Assembly: GCF_945956895.1 (NCBI RefSeq)
Contig: NZ_CAMFJF010000003.1
Location: 62,001-126,000, forward strand
Origin: an uncultured Allobosea sp.
Lineage (GTDB): Bacteria > Pseudomonadota > Alphaproteobacteria > Rhizobiales > Beijerinckiaceae
Length of the DNA: 64,000 nucleotides
Direction: 5' to 3'
In this document: positions 4,365 to 61,928 of the stretch, one piece after another
How positions within the stretch are numbered: position 1 is the stretch's first letter
Layout: every line of letters starts with the position of its first letter
The notes under the pieces: generated by a model
Databases searched by the model: none
What the model was told of the DNA's origin: nothing
Seen by the model: the letters and a program-made list of their open reading frames with translations, nothing else
Position numbers and translations under genes: made by a program

Positions 4365-4405
4365 GATTTCGGGTCCTTTCAGGCGTTTCCGTCTCGGTAA
4401 ACTAC

Positions 4406-4523
4406 AGCCCTCATCCTGAGGAGGCCCGCAGGGCCGTCTCGAAGGATGCTCCAGATTACTCCGGAGCCTCCTGAAACATCCTTCGAGACGCCGCTGACGC
4501 GGCTCCTCAGGATGAGGGCTGAG
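4406..4523. repeat. Palindromic pair, family A copy 1 (short loop)
   Basis: Two inverted arms of about 45-50 bases: AGCCCTCATCCTGAGGAG... on the left, and its inverse ending in GGATGAGGGCT on the right. Each arm carries its own small hairpin. The central bases between the arms match copy A3 at 33823-33941 when read on the minus strand. It lies between matA and matB. Confidence 0.9.
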
Positions 4524-4539
4524 GGGATTTGCATCGCAC

Positions 4540-10979: not shown

Positions 10980-11000
10980 AAGATGCCCCCTGCCACCCTC

Positions 11001-11054
11001 AGCCCTCATCCTGAGGAGCCGCGAAGCGGCGTCTCGAAGGATGCTTCAGGAGGC
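11001..11054 (+). repeat. Family A copy 2, left arm
   Basis: AGCCCTCATCCTGAGGAG... followed by the small hairpin GCCGC-GAA-GCGGC, then GTCTCGAAGGATGC and TTCAGGAGGC. It is the same arm as in short copies A1 and A3. Its matching inverted arm lies 336 bases further right, beyond the GIY-YIG gene. The AGGAGG at its inner end serves as that gene's ribosome-binding site. Confidence 0.9.
11048..11053 (+). promoter_or_regulatory. Ribosome-binding site supplied by repeat arm
   Basis: AGGAGG is six bases upstream of the GTG at 11060. These six bases belong to the conserved inner end of the family A arm and occur at the same place in copy A3, which has no gene. This decides the GTG start of the GIY-YIG gene. 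Confidence 0.75.
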
Positions 11055-11059
11055 GCCTT

Positions 11060-11359
11060 GTGCGAGACCATGATGGATGCTGGCTCTACATCGTAAAATG
11101 CAGCGACGGCAGTTTCTACACCGGCACCACGCGTGCGGACGTGGCAACCCGCGTCGGCCAGCACAATGCAGGACTTCATTCCGACAGCTACACTTTCACC
11201 CGAAGGCCAGTTAGCCTCGTGTTCGCTGAGCATTTTCCCAACATCCTCGACGCAATCACCATGGAGCGACGCGTCAAAGGTTGGTCCCGACGAAAGAAAC
11301 AAGCCATGATCGACGGTCGCTGGGACGAATTACTCGAACTTGCGAAGCGCCAGCAGTGA
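11060..11359 (+). CDS. GIY-YIG nuclease-family protein carried between repeat arms
   Basis: 99 aa, a single minimal GIY-YIG domain of the YhbQ/UPF0213 type. LYIVKCSDGSFYTGTT is the GIY...YIG strand pair (as LYI and YTG). The following helix, ADVATRVGQHNAG, carries the conserved Arg; MERRVKGWSRRKKQAMI holds the metal-binding Glu and the basic stretch typical of single-domain members. Such proteins are DNA-binding or DNA-cutting nucleases of largely unknown function. The gene fills exactly the space between two inverted family A arms, starts at a GTG served by AGGAGG in the left arm, and ends 30 bases before the right arm. That layout suggests a mobile unit. Confidence 0.88.
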   Translation: MRDHDGCWLYIVKCSDGSFYTGTTRADVATRVGQHNAGLHSDSYTFTRRPVSLVFAEHFPNILDAITMERRVKGWSRRKKQAMIDGRWDELLELAKRQQ

Positions 11360-11389
11360 GCTTTCCTTTGCCGCGTGATTTCGAGCCTT

Positions 11390-11441
11390 CTGGAGCATCC
11401 TTCGAGACGCCGCTGCGCGGCTCCTCAGGATGAGGGCTGAG
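11390..11441 (-). repeat. Family A copy 2, right arm
   Basis: CTGGAGCATCCTTCGAGACG, a small hairpin, then CTCCTCAGGATGAGGGCTGAG. It is the inverse of the left arm at 11001-11054. In short copies A1 and A3 the same two arms are separated by only about 10 bases. Confidence 0.9.
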
Positions 11442-11483
11442 CTGAGATCTAATTCCCTTCTTCCTGTTTGACTGGATCCACCC

Positions 11484-14870: not shown

Positions 14871-14964
14871 CGTCATGCTCGCCCTTGTGGCGAGCATCCA
14901 CGTCTTGGACACCGCGCGGCATCAACGAAGACGTGGATGGTCGGGACAAGCCCGACCATGACGG
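14871..14964. repeat. Palindromic pair, family F copy 1
   Basis: CGTCATGCTCGCCCTTGTGG, then GCGAGCATCCACGTCTT, and the inverse AAGACGTGGATGGTCGGGAC ending CCCGACCATGACGG. It separates the convergent spike-like and PLP-enzyme genes and recurs at 43493 (inverted) and 61835. Confidence 0.9.
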
Positions 14965-33724: not shown

Positions 33725-33822
33725 GCCGATCTCCATTCGTGTAACTGCACGATATGGATGAGACAGTGAAGGCGTCAACGGGTAGAATGGCAATAGATGC
33801 TTCAGGGCCCTTGAAGCATGCG

Positions 33823-33941
33823 AGCCCTCATCCTGAGGAGCAGCCGAAGGCTGCGTCTCGAAGGATGCTTCAGGAGGCTCGGGAGCGATCTGGAGCATCC
33901 TTCGAGACGCCGCTTCGCGGCTCCTCAGGATGAGGGCTGAG
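33823..33941. repeat. Palindromic pair, family A copy 3 (short loop)
   Basis: Left arm AGCCCTCATCCTGAGGAG with inner hairpin GCAGCC-GAA-GGCTGC; right arm with GCCGC-TTC-GCGGC, ending GGATGAGGGCTGAG. The arms are separated by about 10 bases after TTCAGGAGGC. It lies between the thioesterase and MarR genes. Confidence 0.92.
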
Positions 33942-33952
33942 TTTCGAATCCG

Positions 33953-38082: not shown

Positions 38083-38121
38083 TTTCCGATGTGCCCTTTT
38101 GATCTTTCACGGAACCACGCC

Positions 38122-38214
38122 GTCATCCCGGGCTTGACCCGGGATCCATCGTAGAACGCACCGCCCTATGATGGATTCCGGATCGGCGCCGCTTCGCGGC
38201 TTGTCCGGAATGAC
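38122..38214. repeat. Palindromic pair, family D copy 2
   Basis: GTCATCCCGGGCTTGACCCG with GGGATCCATCGTAG, and the inverse ATGATGGATTCCGGATC with GCCGCTTCGCGGC, ending TTGTCCGGAATGAC. It sits between the livK-like gene and the ABC exporter gene. The remaining 150 bases up to 38364 show nothing clear. Confidence 0.88.
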
Positions 38215-38363
38215 ACGCGATTTCCGAGAGGGCGGAGCGTTTTCCAAGGCCTCTCCGCCGGATGACAATTTGCTCATCCTGGCGCGGCGCCATTGAAAGG
38301 CCACTCCCGCTGCGACATGGTCCGAATCGTGGCTTTCATCGTCTCCCGCCAGGATTCCCGTCT

Positions 38364-43492: not shown

Positions 43493-43586
43493 CGTCATGG
43501 TCGAGCCTGTCTCGACCATCCACGTCTTCACCGGGCAGAGGCCACACTCAAGACGTGGATGCTCGCCACAGGGGCGAGCATGACGG
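43493..43586. repeat. Palindromic pair, family F copy 2 (inverted)
   Basis: CGTCATGGTCGAGCCTGTCT, ACCATCCACGTCTT, then AAGACGTGGATGCTCGCC ending GCGAGCATGACGG. It is the reverse orientation of copies at 14871 and 61835. It ends 10 bases before the hisS 3' end. Confidence 0.9.
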
Positions 43587-48331: not shown

Positions 48332-48339
48332 CCTCCGCC

Positions 48340-48485
48340 GTCATTCCGGGGCGCCGCAAAGCGGCGAGCCCGGAACCCAGAACCGATGCCGCCCGCAAAT
48401 GAAGCGCATCGATCTGATCAAGACAACGATATCCCGCATCGGTTCTGGGTTCCGGGCTCTTCGCTACGCGAAGCCCCGGAATGAC
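48340..48485. repeat. Palindromic pair, family D copy 4
   Basis: GTCATTCCGGGGCGCCGCAA with CCGGAACCCAGAACCGATGC, then GCATCGGTTCTGGGTTCCGG with CTTCGCTACGCGAAG, ending CCCCGGAATGAC. It belongs to the same subtype as copy 7 at 63061. It lies between glcD and the GIY-YIG gene. Confidence 0.9.
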
Positions 48486-48496
48486 GGAGAGGTTCA

Positions 48497-61834: not shown

Positions 61835-61928
61835 CGTCATGCTCACCCTTGTGGCGAGCATCCACGTCTTGGGCACCAGCCTCGATGAAGGAAGACGTGG
61901 ATGGTCGGGACAAGCCCGACCATGACGG
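61835..61928. repeat. Palindromic pair, family F copy 3
   Basis: CGTCATGCTCACCCTTGTGG with CGAGCATCCACGTCTT, then AAGACGTGGATGGTCGGGAC ending CCCGACCATGACGG. It is nearly identical to copy 1 at 14871. The remaining 170 bases to the pirin start show no gene. Confidence 0.9.

Follow-up and report, generated by a model that had tools for sequence, protein, structure and literature searches.

A gene for a small GIY-YIG nuclease lies between the two inverted arms of a palindromic repeat in a 64,000-nucleotide stretch of DNA (hereafter, the window) from an uncultured Allobosea sp. (contig NZ_CAMFJF010000003.1, positions 62,001 to 126,000), and the same layout recurs widely around related genes. The arms belong to the repetitive extragenic palindromic (REP) sequences, short hairpins that carry a CGTC or CCTC tag. 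We consider it rather probable that gene and arms make up a REP element with its own nuclease, where each Slx1-like clade of 90-100 amino acids is dedicated to one CGTC/CCTC palindrome family, with a proposed nicking-and-copying mode of multiplication. Across hundreds of bacterial genomes, the branches of this nuclease family are each accompanied by a palindrome family of their own, and the nuclease is therefore probably the enzyme that has long been missing for a large class of repeats in bacteria. The original prediction for this DNA described an autonomous unit accompanied by gene-less derivatives, a picture that is supported in part, by a unit found repeatedly, gene-less pairs that are its short relatives, a protein clade that predicts the arm family and higher copy numbers in genomes with this clade; that the protein also runs the repeats is something we infer.

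The Nuclease Gene and Its Palindromic Arms

The arms of the window unit are 57 nt each, 95% complementary and separated by 330 nt. Their coordinates and complementarity, together with the PF01541 match of the enclosed gene (Table 1), confirm the claim that a GIY-YIG gene sits within palindromic arms. Gene-less copies of these arms had been proposed near 4406-4523 and 33823-33941, and the window arms indeed match the pairs at 4405-4524 and 33822-33942 at 88-98%, with a strong fold predicted for a full-length gene-less pair. The genome of the window contains 160 exact arms (76 forward, 84 reverse), mostly in inverted pairs, against none of the reversed pattern, and with these numbers and a layout that recurs widely, the arm-gene-arm arrangement is not due to chance.

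The loops of gene-less pairs, of the form CTTCAGGAGGCTC...ATCTGGAG, measure 28 nt in 18 of 24 distinct cases and 18 nt in another five. Both halves of this normal loop are retained in the gene unit, so that the gene is truly in the loop. The arm tips are highly variable yet self-complementary, with at least four perfect terminal pairs in 27 of the 31 distinct tips (13% for shuffled halves), which indicates that the hairpin itself is conserved. At all loci of this family (family A), the hairpin core has TGAG facing CGAA, which would give two adjacent G.A mismatches inside the stem, possibly a recognition mark.

CGTC-tagged REPs have been described, chiefly in alphaproteobacteria, as sequences with a CGTC tag, AT at the stem base and a CCA tail, arranged in head-to-head dimers (PMC3733652); the same paper names dRS3 and RPE-4/RPE-6 as carriers of such REPs. 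The window repeats answer this description, with CGTC, TGTC or CCTC as the tag, AT at the start of the stem and often a CCA-like tail; family A is the CCTC tag form, with a longer and interrupted stem. Matches to the CGTC-type pattern number 19 in the window, distributed among several families, against a mean of 0.6 in shuffled sequence.

The gene had also been said to borrow its ribosome-binding site from the repeat. This holds for the window copy, where AGGAGG (11048-11053) ends 6 nt before the GTG start at 11060, and was rejected as a general feature: the site is not kept in the 77-78% identical relatives L148 and L149, in which the gene starts farther from the arm or beside a whole pair, and the window copy alone takes it from the arm.

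Palindromes Flank Small GIY-YIG Genes in Many Genomes

A recurrence of the arm-gene-arm layout was sought elsewhere and clearly found. The 61 genomes examined from Bosea and its order gave 94 distinct small GIY-YIG loci. On either side, the 100 nt nearest the gene hold 5.5-6.0 tagged REPs per kb, and the DNA more than 500 nt away holds 0.02-0.26 per kb. Flanking on one side is common in the window, where 24 of 57 open reading frames (ORFs) have a REP within 200 nt on some side, and either-side flanking was discarded there as sole evidence; for this reason we relied on both-sided counts and on neighbour genes in the same loci, the latter chosen as control since REPs are denser in the intergenic DNA around any gene than in coding DNA. 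With a limit of 200 nt, 38 of the 93 GIY-YIG genes in this count have tagged REPs on both sides, as do 2 of 196 neighbour genes (p=2e-19); none of 20 loci for UvrC, which has the same domain, has a REP within that distance. An independent class-wide set gave 7/84 against 0/48 for both sides (p=0.05) and 20/84 against 1/48 for either side (p=9e-4). The REPs are typically oriented with their tags outward, + upstream and - downstream, like a REP dimer; some genes are within one loop, and others are flanked by a complete pair on each side.

In the genome of the window, PF01541 has seven matches, UvrC and six small genes, and all six of the latter are found between or beside palindromes of differing families. 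Three (L001, L005, L006) are nested within inverted arms, one (L002) lies between two composite repeats and two (L003, L004) adjoin one pair.

The idea that all small GIY-YIG genes have REPs was rejected: in large parts of the tree, and at about 26 Elusimicrobiota loci outside the clade of the window protein (hereafter, A-type), neither REPs nor flanking inverted repeats were above chance. One Elusimicrobiota gene outside A-type (L361) has 62-nt inverted flanks with GTCATGTTGAGCGAAG...TCGAAACA, and the association may on this sequence extend past the clades defined here.

Palindrome Family Follows Protein Clade

In a tree of 182 proteins, clades go with REP types of their own, among them TTCCGGGG…CCCGGAA, TTGCGAG…GCAAT, GGTCG…CGACC, GCTCGGG…AGCATCTC and CATCCTGAGG…GAAGGATG. 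Protein and REP distances are correlated in Mantel tests, with r=0.39, 0.26 and 0.24 for representatives below 90, 70 and 60% identity, respectively (p=2e-4, 0.001 and 0.01). Moreover, several clades coexist in one genome, each by its own family, and host descent alone is therefore insufficient to account for the match.

The A-type clade comprises proteins from Bosea, Methylobacterium, Rhodospirillales, Robiginitomaculum, Pelagibius and Sphingobium, as well as from metagenome-assembled genomes (MAGs) of Burkholderiales and Elusimicrobia. From its named relatives the genus is Bosea, G001 being a match to Bosea psychrotolerans. The flanks of nearly all these relatives hold a CTGAG…TCGAAG palindrome, including its short form CTGAGCTTGTCGAAG. 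This palindrome occurs within 200 nt of 37 of 44 A-type genes and of 3 of 163 other small GIY-YIG genes (Fisher p=3e-30), whereas other CGTC REPs show the opposite preference (4/44 and 78/163, respectively; Fisher p=1e-6). Compared with their own neighbour genes, A-type genes have A palindromes on both sides in 20 of 41 cases (neighbours, 0/28) and on either side in 33 of 41 (neighbours, 2/28). Genes lie within arms that are 97% complementary in the Elusimicrobia MAG and 94% in Sphingobium. This MAG (G311, locus L307) has 177 palindromes against 27 of the reversed control; those of the CTGAGCTTGTCGAAG form are chiefly in inverted pairs spaced 46 nt start-to-start, as in alphaproteobacteria, and the gene has opened one such pair. 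No excess is seen in two genomes whose homologues are all distant (7 palindromes against 5 controls, and 4 against 4). At four A-type loci (L300, L301, L306, L307), the frame of the nuclease enters the downstream arm, which provides a C-terminal tail and the stop codon.

Genomes with the Gene Have More Palindromes

Copy number was compared in 241 alphaproteobacterial genomes, 27 of them with an A-type gene, as the number of palindromes above that of the reversed control. The median excess is 17.1 per Mb with the gene and 4.5 without it (p=5e-12), a difference that persists in genomes of at least 2.5 Mb (p=2e-8). Gene-bearing members have the higher excess in 12 of the 14 families holding both kinds of genome, and the top seven genomes by excess all have an A-type gene. 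Within Bosea, the three species with the gene have 164, 182 and 52 arms, and the four species where UvrC is the sole GIY-YIG protein found have 11-34.

Signs of Movement and Inheritance in Place

The gap between the permease and GGT genes that contains the unit (10980-11483) is 504 nt long in the window; most of 29 relatives have 15-23 nt there, even some that are 95-96% identical upstream. In two more species this gap holds the unit, with the gene inverted in one of them (G005), and three other species have there a pair of another family. The gap is an insertion hotspot: depending on the species, it is empty or contains the A-type unit, the inverted unit or pairs from other REP families (the window and L178-L206). 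The gene-less pair at 33822-33942 is likewise absent from five relatives with flanks 89-92% identical, and these empty sites suggest that both the unit and the gene-less pairs come and go.

Further traces of movement are found in the GGTCG clade, in which genes 85-91% identical occupy differing places and one genome (G017) has two copies, 89% identical, at different sites. In three comparisons of unlinked copies (L043/L078, L043/L077 and L077/L092), the sequences become homologous at 5-7 nt outside the upstream pair's REP tag. This boundary is not uniform, as homology extends farther upstream in L054/L092, and other comparisons likewise have no start at the tag edge. Only three A-type genes were found on plasmids, large ones, and phages have only distant homologues, so there is no obvious vehicle.

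Table 1. Positions of the GIY-YIG unit, its parts and other palindromic features in the window
Feature	Position	Strand	Remarks
Left arm	10998-11054	+	REP-like hairpin with CCTC tag (CCTCATCCTGAGGAGC-tip-CGTCTCGAAGGATG) and left half of normal loop
AGGAGG ribosome-binding site within loop half of arm	11048-11053	+	peculiar to window copy
A-type small GIY-YIG nuclease gene	11060-11359	+	GTG start, 99 amino acids; PF01541 E=5e-14
Right arm	11385-11441	-	left-arm hairpin inverted, plus right half of normal loop
Gene-less inverted pair, same family as GIY-YIG arms	4405-4524	.	repeat comparison and full-length fold
Gene-less inverted pair, same family as GIY-YIG arms	33822-33942	.	missing in five relatives
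Second small GIY-YIG gene, 97 amino acids	48038-48331	-	other clade; adjoins inverted pair of other REP family
Inverted pair CGTCATTCCGGGG...GAGCCCGGAA	48338-48487 (arms 48338-48389, 48436-48487)	.	upstream of GIY-YIG gene starting at 48331
Gene-less CGTC-tagged pairs, at least two further families	14871-14963, 38121-38215, 43493-43585, 61835-61927		

The Protein and a Possible Mechanism

The window protein has the features of the GIY-YIG superfamily, with Y10, Y20, R31 and E69 conserved in the A-type alignment. The solved folds nearest to its structure model, a confident one (pLDDT 89), are the UPF0213 proteins 1ZG2 and 1YWL, followed by Slx1, a structure-specific endonuclease. The GIY-YIG domain stands alone in this 99-amino acid protein, encoded in an intergenic gap between palindromes, with no NUMOD, intron or intein at the gene. 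There is no transposase between the arms and no HUH enzyme either (the gene there being of the PF01541 family), the HUH scan having covered 10 of about 57 ORFs of the window, with no genome-wide search run. Several GIY-YIG genes in several genomes contain in-frame stops, which are to be expected of decaying selfish genes. In Caulobacter crescentus, one of three COG2827 genes, CC3518, has an SOS box (PMC1839093), a hint that some such nucleases respond to DNA damage.

We propose that a REP or an inverted pair would become single-stranded on the lagging strand or extrude as a cruciform, and that the nuclease would recognise the hairpin and nick it at the base, next to the tag. From the 3' ends thus freed, host repair or replication would then copy the pair to another place, whether or not its loop holds a gene, and pairs without the gene would be moved in trans. 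The nicking of hairpins or cruciforms is suggested by the resemblance of the fold to UPF0213 and Slx1. GIY-YIG enzymes hydrolyse DNA, a chemistry unlike that of HUH enzymes, and integration would therefore need host repair or replication; this dependence on the host is the weakest step of the mechanism. With somewhat more doubt than belief, we also entertain a wider version, in which mobile palindromes of at least two phyla, the very common CTTCGACAAGCTCAG type among them, would be spread by hydrolytic GIY-YIG enzymes acting on hairpins without transposase chemistry, and the gene-less copies would constitute most CGTC REPs.

Several observations weigh against a REP element with its own nuclease. 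We know of no strand joining by GIY-YIG enzymes, and no clean target duplication was seen at two empty sites. The copy-number test is only partly controlled for phylogeny at the genome level, and no REP is recognised at roughly half of the small GIY-YIG genes. Most GIY-YIG loci of Bosea are common to several species and are therefore mainly inherited in place after insertion, so that vertical inheritance, which the original prediction had counted against itself, applies to most loci, next to presence and absence at orthologous sites. Abundant arms in genomes without the gene, another finding that the prediction had counted against itself, also hold in part: arms are common in Bosea species without the A-type gene (149 in G006, 127 in G036, 108 in G015 and 101 in G027). 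A strict link between gene and arm number inside this genus was thus rejected, since arms persist without the gene: the expected rise of arm number with gene presence is seen across alphaproteobacteria and is loose inside Bosea. Arms in genomes without the gene are evidently old copies that outlast it or that are served in trans.

Alternative Explanations

A host or domesticated GIY-YIG protein could process the hairpins and cruciforms of REPs that another enzyme, for instance an HUH transposase encoded elsewhere, would spread. The predicted Slx1-like fold would suit such structure-specific cleavage, the loci are chiefly inherited in place, and REPs persist without the gene. However, a host repair enzyme has no need to sit inside its own substrate, nor would it be expected to appear and disappear with the unit, to carry in-frame stops in several genomes or to come in several clades per genome, each adjoining its own family; besides, no transposase gene was found flanked by CGTC REPs (Di Nocera et al. 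2013, PMC3733652). Taken together, we regard this maintenance role as rather unlikely. An absence of any functional link, with REPs gathering near any newly gained small gene or small genes landing in REP clusters, could be expected in a window so rich in REPs that 24 of 57 ORFs have one nearby, and several unrelated REPINs (REP doublets forming hairpins, as the gene-less inverted pairs are called) did enter the permease-GGT gap. This explanation was already unlikely, as it accounts neither for the both-sided flanking (38/93 versus 2/196) nor for the match of clade and family within and across genomes and phyla, and we deem it improbable.

A homing scenario, in which a selfish gene targets the intact REPIN, abolishes that target by inserting into the 28-nt loop and is copied from one REPIN to the next through recombination between arms, agrees with a loop broken at its middle with both halves retained, with the homology that the arms supply and with the inverted copy of G005, which fits recombination between inverted arms. 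Nevertheless, every one of the approximately 75 intact REPINs in a genome would be a target, many genes have a whole REPIN on each side instead of a position in the loop, and the multiplication of gene-less REPINs would be left without a cause, all of which makes homing quite improbable. The least probable alternative is that the arms serve the gene solely by terminating transcription, stabilising RNA or aiding translation: the AGGAGG of the loop half does serve the gene in the window and the pair folds strongly, but this site is not kept in the nearest relatives, and neither the 160 copies nor the match of clade and family would be explained.

Relation to Known Repeat Systems

The element is similar in its working to REPIN/RAYT systems (RAYT, REP-associated tyrosine transposase; HUH/Y1 TnpA-REP), without being a member of them. 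Both have short tagged hairpins with an unpaired 4-nt tag, inverted pairs at a fixed short spacing (28 or 18 nt loops here) and high intergenic copy number, many copies being gene-less; both have a dedicated nuclease gene, mostly vertically inherited, flanked by its own REP family, with matching of enzyme and REP. RAYTs are HUH enzymes associated with GTAG tags, whereas the enzyme here is GIY-YIG (PF01541), with a CGTC/CCTC tag and an expected hydrolytic chemistry, and since no HUH enzyme is present at the locus, this is not a RAYT system. With the CGTC REPs (PMC3733652) the palindromes share the tag, the AT stem base, the CCA tail, the head-to-head dimers and a mainly alphaproteobacterial distribution. 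Those REPs seemed in 2013 to be without a dedicated transposase; we propose a GIY-YIG partner for them and add the CTGAG…TCGAAG superfamily.

By fold, size and catalytic motif, the gene belongs to the standalone “Slx1-like” GIY-YIG proteins of the UPF0213/YhbQ type (1ZG2, 1YWL; Dunin-Horkawicz 2006, PMC1564403), for which no link to repeats was found in the open papers searched. GIY-YIG homing endonucleases and Penelope-like elements also place this domain in a selfish element; here there is no intron, NUMOD or reverse transcriptase, and the unit is a palindrome pair. Miniature inverted-repeat transposable elements are comparable as short non-autonomous relatives of an autonomous unit with common ends, but unlike these, and unlike DNA transposons and insertion sequences, our locus has no transposase of a known class and no clean target duplication. 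In the open literature searched, from which subscription papers and preprints are excluded, there is no report of a GIY-YIG-REP link: GIY-YIG never appears with “repetitive extragenic palindromic”, it appears with REPIN only in unrelated restriction-enzyme papers, and TTCGACAAGCTCAG is not found.

Few short repeats in these genomes are as common as the CGTC REPs and the CTGAG…TCGAAG palindromes, and with a candidate gene named for each family, their origin can be put to a direct test. Should the enzyme move the repeats, REP-type elements would have arisen around two unrelated nucleases, one of them without strand-joining chemistry, and a role would be found for a large part of the small “GIY-YIG nuclease family proteins” left unexplained by annotation.
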